From positions 558,001-622,000 of the forward strand of contig JABTUA010000001.1 in the NCBI GenBank assembly GCA_015075635.1: a DNA stretch of 64,000 bases, written 5' to 3'. The notes beneath the pieces were generated by a model. That model had not been told where the DNA came from. It searched no databases and was given only the letters and a program-made list of their open reading frames with translations. A program made the position numbers and the translations under genes. The first letter of the stretch is position 1. Each line of letters opens with the position of its first letter. This stretch comes from Polyangiaceae bacterium. Lineage in GTDB: Bacteria > Myxococcota_A > Polyangia > Polyangiales > Polyangiaceae. Below, piece by piece: positions 2,592 to 24,513 of the stretch.

Positions 2592-3224
2592 ATGAAGTGG
2601 CCTCCGTCCGCGCCGCTACTGCTCGGAACGATCGGGCTCCTCTCCTGCGGCACCGCCACGCCCCCGCCTGACGGACCCGTCACTCCGGCACCGACAGCGA
2701 CGCCCGTCGCAGCACCTTCCGCGGCCCCGACAGCCCCGCCCGAGGCGGCTCCCTCCGCCAGCGCGGGGCCGGCGCCCTCCGCATCGGCGGCTGCCGCTGC
2801 TCCGCGCTGCGCCTCGAGCGACGACTGCACGAAGTTCGGAAAGTGCGTCGACTTGCCGGACGGGAAGTGCGGCGTCGATGCCGAGAGCTGTCGAGCTTCT
2901 TCCCAGTGCCCGTACTCCGGGCGCTGCGTGCCCTCGCAGGATGGGCGCCGCTGCACGGCGACCCGGGAGACTTGCCAGTCGTCGCAGGCCTGCCGCGAGG
3001 ATGGCGAGTGCGACTTCGATGCCGACTCGGGTTGCGTCGCGAGCCCCGAGCTGTGCCGAAAGGGCGAGGTGTGCCCGAACGCGGGGCGCTGCGGCTACAG
3101 CGCCACGCTGAAGACGTGCGTGGCCCGGTCGCAGCAGGATTGCCGGCGCTCCAAGCAGTGCAAAGAGGTCGGCTTGTGCAGGATGGATGCCGAGACCGGG
3201 CACTGCCTGCCGGGTCTCCCTTAG
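2592..3224 (+). CDS. Cys-repeat lipoprotein
   Basis: A secreted, lipid-anchored protein of 210 residues. The N-terminus has a short hydrophobic stretch ending in LLSC, a lipobox with C19. An Ala/Pro/Ser-rich linker runs to about residue 73. The rest consists of about five repeats of roughly 24 residues with the pattern CxxSxxCxxxGxC, for example CASSDDCTKFGKC and CQSSQACREDGEC. All cysteines likely pair in disulfides outside the cell. No enzymatic motif is visible. Its TAG stop overlaps the TAA stop of the convergent hydrolase gene within the four bases TTAG. Confidence 0.82.
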   Translation: MKWPPSAPLLLGTIGLLSCGTATPPPDGPVTPAPTATPVAAPSAAPTAPPEAAPSASAGPAPSASAAAAAPRCASSDDCTKFGKCVDLPDGKCGVDAESCRASSQCPYSGRCVPSQDGRRCTATRETCQSSQACREDGECDFDADSGCVASPELCRKGEVCPNAGRCGYSATLKTCVARSQQDCRRSKQCKEVGLCRMDAETGHCLPGLP

Positions 3225-4366
3225 CCCAGGAGCGCGAGCCTCTCTACCGGCTCCGCGAGGCGCCTCTCCACGTAGTCCGCCGGCGGCATCTCCTCGAGTC
3301 GGAAGGTGATCTGCCGCGTGCGCGGGTGCTCCTCGAGCGACAGATAGCCCTCGTCCGCCAGCGTACACAACATGCCGAAGGTGTGGCTCGGGGTCGAGAT
3401 CGGGTGAGAGCCCGCGCTCGGGATGAAGGCGTTCAGATCGCAAGCGCGGAAAGGCTCGGCGCGCCGCGCCGGCTCGCCGAAGAAGCCCTCGAGCAGCGCG
3501 CGGTAGATGCCCTGGAAATACGCCTCGGCGAAGCTCACCCACTCGAGCGGGCGCGTCACCGCGAACTTGCCGTGCGGCGCCAGCACGGCGCGCACCTCGT
3601 GGGTCTCGAAGAAGCGCCGGAGCACGCGGATACTGTCGAGGAAGCGCTCGTACGCCGCCGAATACGCCTGCCCGGCGACGGTGAAGATCGGGATCACGTA
3701 TGCGAGCGTCTCCGGCTTGTCGACGAGGCCGGTGCAGATGATGGTGTCACCGGGCACCGCCACGCCGAGCTCGGGGTCGTAGTAGAGCACGCAGTCCAAC
3801 GAGTGACCGGGCGTGGCCAGCGCCAAGATGCCCGGAGGAAGCGCGCCCCTGTCCACGAACGAGAGCGCGCGCTTGGGCGTCTTGGCGAAGTAGCCGCTGA
3901 AGCGCTTGCGGAGCGCGTTGTTCAGCATCTGCTCGTCGCTGAAGGCGTTGTACTCGTGCAGCCCCCAGTGCGCACGGGTCTGGAAGATCTCGTAGGTCTC
4001 GTTGAGGAACGCGGCCTCCGGGTGGGTCAGGAAGCGATAGCCCGCCGAGTGCAGGTAGATTGGCGCGCGCTCACCGGCCGGCCGCCCGTGACCGGCGACG
4101 AGGCCCGCGCTGCCCGCATGGTCACCGTGACAGTGCGTGAGGCACAGCGCGTCGAGGCGGCGCACGCCGTGGGCCTCGAGCGCGCGCCGCGTCTCCTCCA
4201 CCACGTCGGGTCGCGCCGGCCCGCACTCGAACAGCGTCGTCTGCCCGGCATGGCGCCGGAGCACCAGGTTCACGTGCTTGGGGCTGGGGTAGCCGCTCGG
4301 GACGGGCAACACGTCGAGCCGGCCGAGCAGGCCGAGCTCGCGGAAGGCGTCTGCGAAGGGCAGCAT
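3221..4366 (-). CDS. MBL-fold metallo-hydrolase
   Basis: A metallo-beta-lactamase superfamily hydrolase of 381 residues. The zinc motif HxHxDH is seen as THCHGDHAGS (H78, H80, D82, H83). Further ligands fit a His in TPGHSLDC and the Asp in VPGDTIICTG. The C-terminal third resembles the helical extension found in many thioesterase- or lactonase-like members, so an ester substrate is plausible but unproven. It is the last gene of a PilZ-helicase-hydrolase operon, starting 15 bases after the helicase stop. Confidence 0.85.
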   Translation of the reverse strand: MLPFADAFRELGLLGRLDVLPVPSGYPSPKHVNLVLRRHAGQTTLFECGPARPDVVEETRRALEAHGVRRLDALCLTHCHGDHAGSAGLVAGHGRPAGERAPIYLHSAGYRFLTHPEAAFLNETYEIFQTRAHWGLHEYNAFSDEQMLNNALRKRFSGYFAKTPKRALSFVDRGALPPGILALATPGHSLDCVLYYDPELGVAVPGDTIICTGLVDKPETLAYVIPIFTVAGQAYSAAYERFLDSIRVLRRFFETHEVRAVLAPHGKFAVTRPLEWVSFAEAYFQGIYRALLEGFFGEPARRAEPFRACDLNAFIPSAGSHPISTPSHTFGMLCTLADEGYLSLEEHPRTRQITFRLEEMPPADYVERRLAEPVERLALLG

Positions 4367-10524: not shown

Positions 10525-11295
10525 ATGCGCAAGCGGTCCCTCCTGGCAGTTCCCTTCGTGCTCGGCCTGGTCTTCGCGTCGGCGTGCGGCGACGACGACG
10601 ACGATGGCGGCGGAGGAGGCAGCGGCGGCACCGGCGGCGGCAGCCCGGACAACGTCGGCTCGGTGTGCAAGGTCCCCGGGGACTGCTACCCGGAGCTCGA
10701 GGCCGGCGCGCTGAAGGGCGAGGCCATCTGCCTGGACAGAACCGACGAGGGCTACTGCACGCACATGTGCCAGGACGACTCGGACTGCTGCGCCGTCGAG
10801 GGTGAGTGCAAGACCTCGCTGAAGCAGGTGTGCGCGCCGTTCGAGAGCACGGCCGGGAAGAAGTGCTTCTTGAGCTGCGAGAACGCCGACATCGGTGGAG
10901 CGGACGCCGATCAGTACTGTCGCGACAACGTCCACCCCGACTTCGGGTGCCGCTCGACGGGCGGCGGCAACGAGAACCGCAAGGTCTGCTTCCCGGTGGA
11001 CTGCGGCGTGGGCGAATCGTGTGCGGGAGACGCCGAGTGCGCCGCCGGCCTCGTCTGCCTGACCAGCTTCAAGGGAGGCTACTGCGGCAAGAGCGACTGC
11101 GCGGTCAACGCCGACTGCCCCACCGGCTCCTTGTGCGTGAAGAACGGCAGCGGGAGCTACTGCGCCCTGAGCTGCACCGCGCCGGGCGACTGCGCCAGCT
11201 GCCGCGGCGCCGACGTGATCGCGGACTGCAAGGCCGACGCGACCTTCATGGAAGCGGGCACGACCGGGAGCGTGTGCGTGCCTGCGAACAAGTGA
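10525..11295 (+). CDS. Cys-rich lipoprotein
   Basis: 256 residues. The signal peptide ends in a lipobox at FASAC, and the mature N-terminus is an Asp-then-Gly-rich linker (five Asp followed by Gly/Ser/Thr). The remainder is a Cys-rich extracellular region with pairs such as VCKVPGDCYPE, CQDDSDCC and CAVNADCPTGSLC, similar in style to the short dickkopf/EGF-like Cys repeats common in myxobacterial lipoproteins. No catalytic motif is visible. Probably surface exposed; function unknown. Confidence 0.8.
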   Translation: MRKRSLLAVPFVLGLVFASACGDDDDDGGGGGSGGTGGGSPDNVGSVCKVPGDCYPELEAGALKGEAICLDRTDEGYCTHMCQDDSDCCAVEGECKTSLKQVCAPFESTAGKKCFLSCENADIGGADADQYCRDNVHPDFGCRSTGGGNENRKVCFPVDCGVGESCAGDAECAAGLVCLTSFKGGYCGKSDCAVNADCPTGSLCVKNGSGSYCALSCTAPGDCASCRGADVIADCKADATFMEAGTTGSVCVPANK

Positions 11296-11501
11296 GCAGC
11301 CCTCGAGCTGAGCAGTCTTGGCGCGATCAGATCGCGATCCGAAAGGGGTAGCGGCAACCCACGAGAATGTCCGGCGAGGCCGGCGGAAGCCTCCTCGGCC
11401 CGAGGATCGGCCGCCCGGACTTCGCAGGTCACGCTTGGCGTGCGACCTCGAAGAAATCCATCCCCGACGGGATCTCCTCGGCGCCGTAGCGCGCAACGAC
11501 G

Positions 11502-12146
11502 TCACCGCACCCGGTCTTCGATCCCGACGCGCTCGATGCGCGGCAGCACCGCGTCGCCGAACAGCGCGAGCCGCTCGCCCACGGTGGCCTCCGCGTTCCC
11601 GCCCTGGGCGCGCGTCGTGTAGAACGCCGCGTAGCACTGCCCGATGGTGTGACCCACGGCGAGGGCGTAGCCCTCGATCTCACCTTCCTTGCCTGCGCGC
11701 CGCACGCCCACCACGAGCTCGGTGTGGTAGCCCGCCGGGGACTCCAGCGCGCGGCGGTCCACCACGCTCGCGGGCTCGGCCTCGGGGTTCGGCGCCTTGG
11801 GGCGCCAGAGCGTGATTTGCTTCTGGCAGTCTTCGCGCCGCGCCAGCCGCGAGGTGCGCCAGGTCTTCACCGAGAGCTCCGACGAGCTGGGCGGGTGCCG
11901 CGCGGTCCACCAGGGCTCGCGCACGTCCTCGATCTGCCAGTCCTTGCGCTCCGGCAGCGACACGGTCACCGAGAAGCGCCCCGAGGTCACGCTGCCCCAG
12001 GCGCGATCCGCGATGCCGACGCTGCTCTTCGGCACGGGCGGCGGTGGGGGCACCGGCGCGGGCGCCGGCTCGGGCGGCGGTGCCGCCGCGCAGGCCGCGC
12101 TCCCGAGCGCGAGCATCAGGCACACGAGCCGGGACACGGCGCTCAC
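11502..12146 (-). CDS. Lipoprotein, hypothetical
   Basis: 214 residues. I chose the GTG at 12146 because it overlaps the TGA of ilvE by four bases (GTGA), so it is the second gene of that operon. The signal peptide ends in a lipobox, LGSAAC, followed by a Pro/Ala-rich linker with PPPEPAPAPVPPPPP. The folded part (about 45-214) has two Cys and no family I know; it includes VTVSLPERKDWQI. The frame stops at 11502, but a protein-like continuation exists in another frame down to about 11429, so the C-terminus may be shortened by a frameshift. Confidence 0.7.
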   Translation of the reverse strand: MSAVSRLVCLMLALGSAACAAAPPPEPAPAPVPPPPPVPKSSVGIADRAWGSVTSGRFSVTVSLPERKDWQIEDVREPWWTARHPPSSSELSVKTWRTSRLARREDCQKQITLWRPKAPNPEAEPASVVDRRALESPAGYHTELVVGVRRAGKEGEIEGYALAVGHTIGQCYAAFYTTRAQGGNAEATVGERLALFGDAVLPRIERVGIEDRVR

Positions 12147-23163: not shown

Positions 23164-23993
23164 ATGCTGATCGCATGACCCGCCTCTCGGTTTTCGGCTT
23201 GCTGGCGTCCCTGGCCTACCTCGGCGCCTGCGGGAGCAGCGAGGACAAGTCCGGCAGCGGCGGCGCGGCCGGCAGCGCGGGCAACCCCAACGTGATCCTG
23301 GACGGCGGCGGGATCATCCCCGACGCGCCGAACGGCGAGGCGCTGTGCCAGACCGGGGAGTGCAACTACCAGAAGCAGGACTGCCCGAGCGGGGGTAGCT
23401 GCATCCCGACCGACACCCCGCCGGCGAACGGCGACTGGCCACCCAAGTGCTTCAGCGCGGGGGCCAAGCAGCCCGGCGAGAGCTGCTCTGCCTGGAACGA
23501 CTGCGCGCTCGGCGCGTTCTGCGTCGGCATCGGCGGCGCCGCCGACGGCGGCGTGACCCCCGGGACCTGTCGCAAGCTCTGCTGCGGCGGCGACTGGTCG
23601 GCGTGCCCCAAGGACCAGAGCTGCATCCAGCAGGTCTACCTGGTGCGCCCGGGCGGCGGCGATCCGGTGTACGCCAAGGCCGACGTCTGCGCGCCGGTCA
23701 ACGACTGCGACGTGCTCGATCCGAAGGCCTGCGCGGCCGAGCCCGGGCGGAGCTGCCAGATCGTGGACCCGACGGGCAACGTCGCCTGCATGCCCGCCGG
23801 GACCGGCGGGCCCGGCGACGCCTGCGATCCGAAGAAGCCGTGCAAGGCCGGCTTCGCCTGCGTCGCGGACGAGTGCAGGCGCCTGTGCAAGGCGGTCCCC
23901 GGCGGCGGCGAGCCCTCCTGCCCGGCCTCCGAGGGGACCTGCGTGCACTACGCGCGGGATCCCGCCGGCGTCGGCGAGTGCACGGTGCTCTAG
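23160..23993 (+). CDS. Cys-rich lipoprotein
   Basis: 277 residues from the ATG that overlaps the previous stop; a second in-frame ATG at 23175 is an alternative. The lipobox is YLGAC, followed by a Gly/Ala/Ser linker and a Cys-rich body with spaced pairs such as CQTGECNYQKQDC, CSAWNDCALGAFC and CDPKKPCKAGFACVADEC. This layout recurs in several lipoproteins of the window. The TAG stop lies in the CTAG that flanks a MITE-like element. Confidence 0.8.
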   Translation: MNADRMTRLSVFGLLASLAYLGACGSSEDKSGSGGAAGSAGNPNVILDGGGIIPDAPNGEALCQTGECNYQKQDCPSGGSCIPTDTPPANGDWPPKCFSAGAKQPGESCSAWNDCALGAFCVGIGGAADGGVTPGTCRKLCCGGDWSACPKDQSCIQQVYLVRPGGGDPVYAKADVCAPVNDCDVLDPKACAAEPGRSCQIVDPTGNVACMPAGTGGPGDACDPKKPCKAGFACVADECRRLCKAVPGGGEPSCPASEGTCVHYARDPAGVGECTVL

Positions 23994-24220
23994 GGGTTGT
24001 CCCTGATTCGCGCTCCGCTGGCGGCAGCAGACGCCTCGCGACGCTTCCGTTCGGTCGAAACGGCCGGCGCCGGCCCCGGCCGGTCTCCGCACTCACGCCT
24101 CATTGGCGGATCGAGATCTGATCATGACCAGACTGTTCAAGTGATTCCGGGGCTCGGCTGACCGCCGAGCGGCGCGGATCGAGCCGCTCGGTCGCACACC
24201 GAACTAGGGACACCCCCTAG
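23990..24220. mobile_element. MITE-like element with inverted ends and CTAG target duplication
   Basis: A 223-base insert (23994-24216) between two convergent genes. Its ends are imperfect inverted repeats: the left end starts GGGTTGTCCCTGATTC and the right end, read on the other strand, starts GGGGTGTCCCTAGTTC, 13 of 16 matching. Both sides are flanked by CTAG (23990-23993 and 24217-24220), which fits a 4-base target duplication as made by IS5-group elements (YTAR targets). The inside has no transposase frame and contains GC-rich palindromic stretches near 24060-24085. Removing insert and one CTAG would leave both neighbouring stop codons overlapping in one CTAG. Confidence 0.6.
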
Positions 24221-24513
24221 CCCTTGAGCATGCGGGCGATGGTGTGCGTTTCCTTGGCGCCGAGCAGCCCGAACTGAACCCCGAACCCGCCCGGCTTTGC
24301 CCAGCGCACGGTGCCCGGCAGCTTGAGGTCCGTGCCGGAAATCTTCATGGCGATGCTAAGCTCGGTGCCGAACGCCAGGCTCTCCGCCGACTCGACGAAC
24401 ATGCCGCCCATGCTCACGTCTCTGACGACCCCGGCCACGGGCGGACCGTCCTTGCGCTCGCAGGATACGCTGATCTCTACCTGGACCCGAGGGTGAACGC
24501 GTTTGTCTTGCAC
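24217..24513 (-). CDS. PilZ-domain protein (canonical, stand-alone)
   Basis: 98 residues, essentially one PilZ domain. Both cyclic-di-GMP signatures are present: the Arg motif in KRVHPRVQVEISVSC (about 4-18) and DVSMGGMFVE (about 33-42). The GTG start has a GGAGG at 24519-24523. It probably works as a cyclic-di-GMP adaptor for a partner protein. The stop codon lies in the CTAG flanking the MITE-like element. Confidence 0.88.
   Translation of the reverse strand: MQDKRVHPRVQVEISVSCERKDGPPVAGVVRDVSMGGMFVESAESLAFGTELSIAMKISGTDLKLPGTVRWAKPGGFGVQFGLLGAKETHTIARMLKG

Follow-up and report, generated by a model that had tools for sequence, protein, structure and literature searches.

The 225-base insert that lies between two convergent genes at positions 23990-24220 of the window (the entire stretch of 64,000 nucleotides of a Polyangiaceae genome analyzed here) is a MITE, a non-autonomous DNA transposon of a known kind, with an unusually clear stop-codon niche. 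In all probability, it represents a CTAG-targeted MITE of the IS5 family, of which the copies in genes and promoters were subsequently lost, and we take the window copy itself to be neutral baggage.

The insert, its flanking genes and its copies

The insert and the two genes that it separates have the following features:

23175..23993, plus strand: upstream convergent gene, putative lipoprotein (start from the codon-usage caller)
23990..23993, no strand: left CTAG, a target copy of TA (or CTAG), the TAG of which is the stop of the upstream plus-strand gene
23993..24010, plus strand: left terminal inverted repeat, GGGGTTGTCCCTGATTCG
24029..24148, plus strand: interior core with approximate limits (nhmmer), present also in copies without these ends and in a second MITE-like family
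24109-24133, within the interior core: core motif, GATCnnGATCTGATCnTGnCAAGAC
24200..24217, minus strand: right terminal inverted repeat, GGGGGTGTCCCTAGTTCG, near-identical to the ends of an 866-bp insertion sequence (IS)
24217..24220, no strand: right CTAG, the second target copy, the CTA of which is the stop (TAG) of the minus-strand PilZ gene
24217..24513, minus strand: downstream convergent PilZ-domain gene (PF07238, E 7.5e-15)

As the first-pass annotation had it, CTAG is present at both borders (23990-23993 and 24217-24220). The TAs are separated by about 225 bp. The upstream open reading frame (ORF; 23175-23993, plus strand, no match in a Pfam search) ends in the TAG at 23991-23993 and the PilZ ORF (24217-24513, minus strand) in the TAG, read as CTA, at 24217-24219; both genes indeed terminate at the insert borders and both stops are intact after the insertion. 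The inverted ends are real as well: the arms at 23990-24010 and 24200-24220 (21 nt) are 86% complementary, and the window holds two matches to the end pattern when 3 mismatches are allowed, where 0.45 would be expected. Judging by the copy and control counts given below, the pattern is far above chance. The uninterrupted shared-stop layout noted in the same annotation was correctly placed in the TTAG at 3221-3224, where a plus-strand ORF (2592-3224) and a minus-strand ORF (3221-4366) overlap.

A blastn search with the 231 bases of this region against its own genome (9.47 Mb, 70% GC) detected 40 distinct loci, some of them partial, with 70-96% identity, and a search with the end pattern (35 matches, against 4 for the reversed control) contributed an 82-bp mini-copy, for a total of 41 dispersed loci, so that the expectation of further genomic copies is borne out. 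The element is short, dispersed, present in multiple copies and devoid of a transposase, for which about 225 bp is too short. The arrangement at the left border, where the target copy includes the stop TAG, is repeated in most copies. The alignment of 25 copies gives GGGGGTGTCCCTnATTCG as the consensus left end, and CTAGGGGGTGTCCCTnATTCG and CGAACTAGGGACACCCCCTAG as the end consensus. One region (L212) contains two adjacent copies. In five copies (L014, L015, L028, L030 and L073), the hairpin loop holds a further short palindrome, CACCCCGTCGGG...TCGCGAAGCGCGTCC or a variant of it, which looks like a nested insertion.

When 39 genomes, the own one included, were searched with the same 231 bases, the sister species G001 yielded 7 diverged matches, and a single short match came from each of G023 and G024; 35 genomes, including the other sister species, G002, had no match. 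From the plasmid collection, 12 records gave short, weak matches, none of which reached 80% coverage, and the end-pattern search returned no match among viral contigs and, among genome contigs, one contig (a Nitrospirae MAG) with a single end.

The first-pass annotation had called for relatives with an empty site, and in both sisters the same two genes are adjacent, with no insert. It had also placed both stops within a single pre-insertion CTAG, and here the sisters differ: each of the two genes has its own TGA stop, the two lying 6 bp from each other, and there is no CTAG. The site of another copy (L079) is likewise insert-free in both sisters; there, too, the stops are separate, with spacings of 6 and 9 bp, and at both sites the length of the protein ends is nearly unchanged. 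The predicted empty CTAG was thus not seen in G001 or G002 at either site; given that the sisters lack it, the CTAG required before insertion must have arisen in this lineage. The junction itself points to a CTAG pre-insertion site and to a putative ancestor in which the two stops shared it. At L015, the gene order differs in both sisters: the left gene is followed by another gene and the right-hand neighbor is elsewhere, a rearrangement at a MITE. The flank of L006 matched on one side only. The possibility that the insert is a diverged intergenic spacer with inverted ends formed by chance is practically eliminated by the 41 loci, the control counts and the insert-free sister sites.

The partner insertion sequence and the target site

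With one mismatch allowed, the end pattern was found in 6 of the 183 genomes of the order, the own genome among them. Of the 7 places outside the own genome, L081 in G031 and L083 in G099 are matched by another inverted end at a distance of 866 bp, whereas the remaining five showed a single end; a third complete IS (L132 in G147, 865 bp) came from a protein search. The hosts of this partner IS (865-866 bp) belong to other genera of the same order. L081 and L083 each contain two overlapping ORFs matching DUF4096 (PF13340) and DDE_Tnp_1 (PF01609), and all four ORFs tested in these two copies passed the cut-off of NF033580 (NCBIfam, IS5-family transposase). The MITE has terminal inverted repeats in common with an autonomous element, the IS in G031, G099 and G147. 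The transposase's own TAG stop lies inside the right end of the IS, and that stretch is retained in the MITE (GAACTAGGGACACCCCC).

By size and gene layout, the partner IS fits an IS427-like element rather than the IS5 group sensu stricto. Members of the IS427 group are typically about 850 bp long and have two overlapping ORFs that are joined by a frameshift. The IS427 group of Paracoccus comprises elements of 832-865 bp with ends of 13-21 bp and, in some members, two overlapping ORFs (PMC3281130); the partner IS, with its two overlapping ORFs and 865-866 bp, matches in length and ORF arrangement, whereas the window element has no transposase and shares with the partner IS the ends alone. The original assignment to the IS5 group therefore holds in that the ends belong to an IS5-family element but not in the narrow sense. 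CTAG is also a target of IS630; an IS630 origin was rejected, with PF13358 (DDE_3) counted 0 times in the own genome.

The full IS with the same ends that the first-pass annotation had suggested looking for thus exists in three other genomes, but a search limited to relatives of its transposase found none in the own genome, G001 or G002, and the own genome yielded no autonomous copy. The MITE family looks to be stranded there now, and its past mobilization in trans is inferred from the ends alone.

In 15 of 39 copies, the ends are clean and a TA is found where expected on either side; the implied site is CTAG in 12 of these and TTAG (L007), CTAA (L009) and CTAC (L021) in the others. Convergent stops can overlap by four bases in four ways, namely CTAG, CTAA, TTAG and TTAA (PMC2174442). 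In L007 and L009, as well as in L030 and L019, which have less clean ends, the outer bases differ between the two sides, as would follow from duplication of TA or from mutation at a later time. In L021, by contrast, CTAC flanks the element left and right, in keeping with a duplication of 4 bp. A strict claim of TA duplication was abandoned, with the outer-base changes in the former four copies possibly being later mutations and L021 opposing it. The CTAG on both sides noted earlier is confirmed; the duplication may be TA (L007, L009, L030 and, less cleanly, L019) or 4 bp of the CTAG type (L021). IS427-group elements of Paracoccus mostly make 2-bp duplications (PMC3281130), and MITEPsy1 a 4-bp duplication (PMC3189936). 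In the open-access papers searched on IS427/IS5 and IS701 targets, we found no direct statement on CTAG.

MITEPsy1 of Pseudomonas syringae is, as far as the consulted passages go, also a short MITE, thought to derive from the IS5-family ISPsy2, with 18-nt inverted ends and insertion at CTAG or YTAA with duplication; it differs from the window element in being 100 nt long, in its sequence and in its 6 copies in the strain, and these passages make no mention of a stop-codon pattern (PMC3189936).

The stop-codon niche and its possible causes

Genes were called with a simple script based on codon usage, for which the window served as training set, and 39 of the 41 loci were classified; L076 and L078, which are arrays or rearranged, were left out. 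Of the 39, 28 are convergent and 11 tandem, and none is divergent or genic. In 37 of them, at least one junction has a stop codon no more than 20 bp away, and in 24 both junctions do. In the background set of 1.6 Mb, taken from the own genome as 80 stretches of 20 kb each, CTAG occurs 461 times, against approximately 4523 expected from base composition, an approximately tenfold depletion. With sites close to stretch ends set aside, 423 CTAG remain, of which 123 are genic, 46 convergent, 166 tandem and 82 divergent, with 6 at edges. Compared to the non-genic sites, of which 46 of 294 are convergent (not counting the 6 at piece edges), the excess of convergent copies has p ~1e-12, and their absence from genes has p ~5e-6.

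We propose the following scenario for these observations. The element is a non-autonomous IS5-family MITE with IS427-like ends and about 225 bp between the TAs, which was probably moved into CTAG/YTAR sites by a transposase binding GGGGGTGTCCCTnnTTCG ends. Insertion into a TAG stop would restore TAG on the left and leave TAG on the other strand on the right, given that the target is palindromic and the TA is duplicated; with the stops restored on both sides, neither protein need change. Copies in genes or promoter regions would be lost, with the survivors located at gene ends, mostly between convergent genes. CTAG is scarce in this GC-rich genome, and when TA or CTAG is duplicated within a TAG stop, each strand regains its stop; the family would be a case of a transposon with a palindromic, stop-containing target multiplying at little cost.

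Under a different view, insertion is actively directed to the 3' ends of convergent genes by the element or its transposase, for example through supercoiling or an extended sequence, and selection is minor. Sites with two stops are rare (6 CTAG and 10 YTAR in 1.6 Mb) and yet hold 5 of the 15 clean copies, and none of the many intergenic CTAG sites between divergent genes has a copy; targeting could also yield the bias among survivors, and the readable IS copies are too few to decide. However, the clean copies in convergent gaps (5 at two stops, 6 at one stop, 1 intergenic) are not very far from the background (6, 18 and 22, respectively), and the context does not differ between younger and older copies (p 0.44). 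Among the four IS copies examined, L083 lies at a TAG stop, L132 and L136 gave no clear answer, and L081 splits a gene that would read through once its two parts were joined, which shows that the IS is able to enter genes. We therefore regard a predominant role of targeting as unlikely and infer that selection against copies in genes and promoters, more than targeting, produced the bias.

Another option is that the copies are retained for a bidirectional role at 3' ends between convergent genes, as terminator, insulator or mRNA stabilizer. Old copies remain in the same kind of place, the interior motif is found in three genera, and both strands fold better than shuffled sequences (z -4.4 and -3.9), as expected from the inverted ends. 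Against such a role, there is no terminator-like site with a T run within the element, covariation does not support the fold predicted for the consensus of 25 copies (term +0.32; double changes in 3 of 46 pairs), and the sisters lack the element at two sites, making this option quite improbable. A structured RNA or intrinsic terminator was likewise rejected in the absence of an Rfam match (window 23700-24500), a T-run terminator and covarying helices. The preference for gene ends also has a parallel: QMITE2 of Coxiella burnetii is found mainly in 3' untranslated regions according to a review (PMC10969869), so the 3'-end habit itself is not new, the difference being that in the present family the junction coincides with the stop codon. 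The open-access papers searched on MITEs of myxobacteria or Sorangium, stop codons and convergent genes yielded nothing on the present element, which we continue to interpret as a CTAG-targeted MITE shaped by loss.

The interior core and a second family of ends

The nhmmer search of the 80 background stretches with the MITE profile gave 17 further matches, to the interior only; the ends of this family are absent from all of them. The own genome has 98 occurrences of the core motif GATCnnGATCTGATCnTGnCAAGAC, whereas G001 has 6, G002 4, G022 10, and G145 and G146 two each (control 0); the motif is absent from the other 177 of the 183 genomes. Tandem arrays of the core were observed at L078:1903-2737 (seven units of ~95 bp followed by a longer one) and L159:16676-17327 (four units).

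Several core copies carry other inverted ends, CTAGnCTCGACTTGnGCA, and constitute a second MITE-like family, denoted family B:

L147:13889-14090: family B copy
L285:1119-1355: family B copy
L286:1101-1336: family B copy
L291:1469-1675: family B copy

Family B shares with the window element the interior core, the CTAG at the ends and the abutment to TAG stops (in the own genome, three of the four complete copies examined abut one), but its ends are CTCGACTTGnGCA instead of the IS5-type ends. These ends were counted 22 times in the own and 20 times in the G022 genome (controls 0), with most other genomes of the family near the control level, and match an IS701-like remnant in G167, where two of them lie 1051 bp apart (L283:1003-2053) around a broken transposase that resembles the IS701 type below the cut-off (NF049999, E 1e-21, 77 vs 170 bits). 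CTAG is a target for IS701. No publication on family B was found.

Unexpectedly, the same interior thus seems to travel with the ends of two transposase families. A tentative extension of this view, which we consider possible rather than probable, is that the ~110-bp interior is itself an old element, which on at least two occasions was capped anew with ends from unrelated transposon families, of the IS5 type in the window family and IS701-like in family B, and that both caps, being CTAG-directed, delivered the core repeatedly to stops in several myxobacterial genera, where it is perhaps useful at 3' ends. An interior common to two MITE-like families with different ends provides a testable case of MITE end-swapping.

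At L283 of G167, a neighboring gene's TAG stop lies at the left end of the IS701-like remnant. The window itself contains one more copy of the core motif, at 11315-11339 on the minus strand (one mismatch; chance expectation 0.00), between convergent genes that end in TGA (gap 11295-11502).
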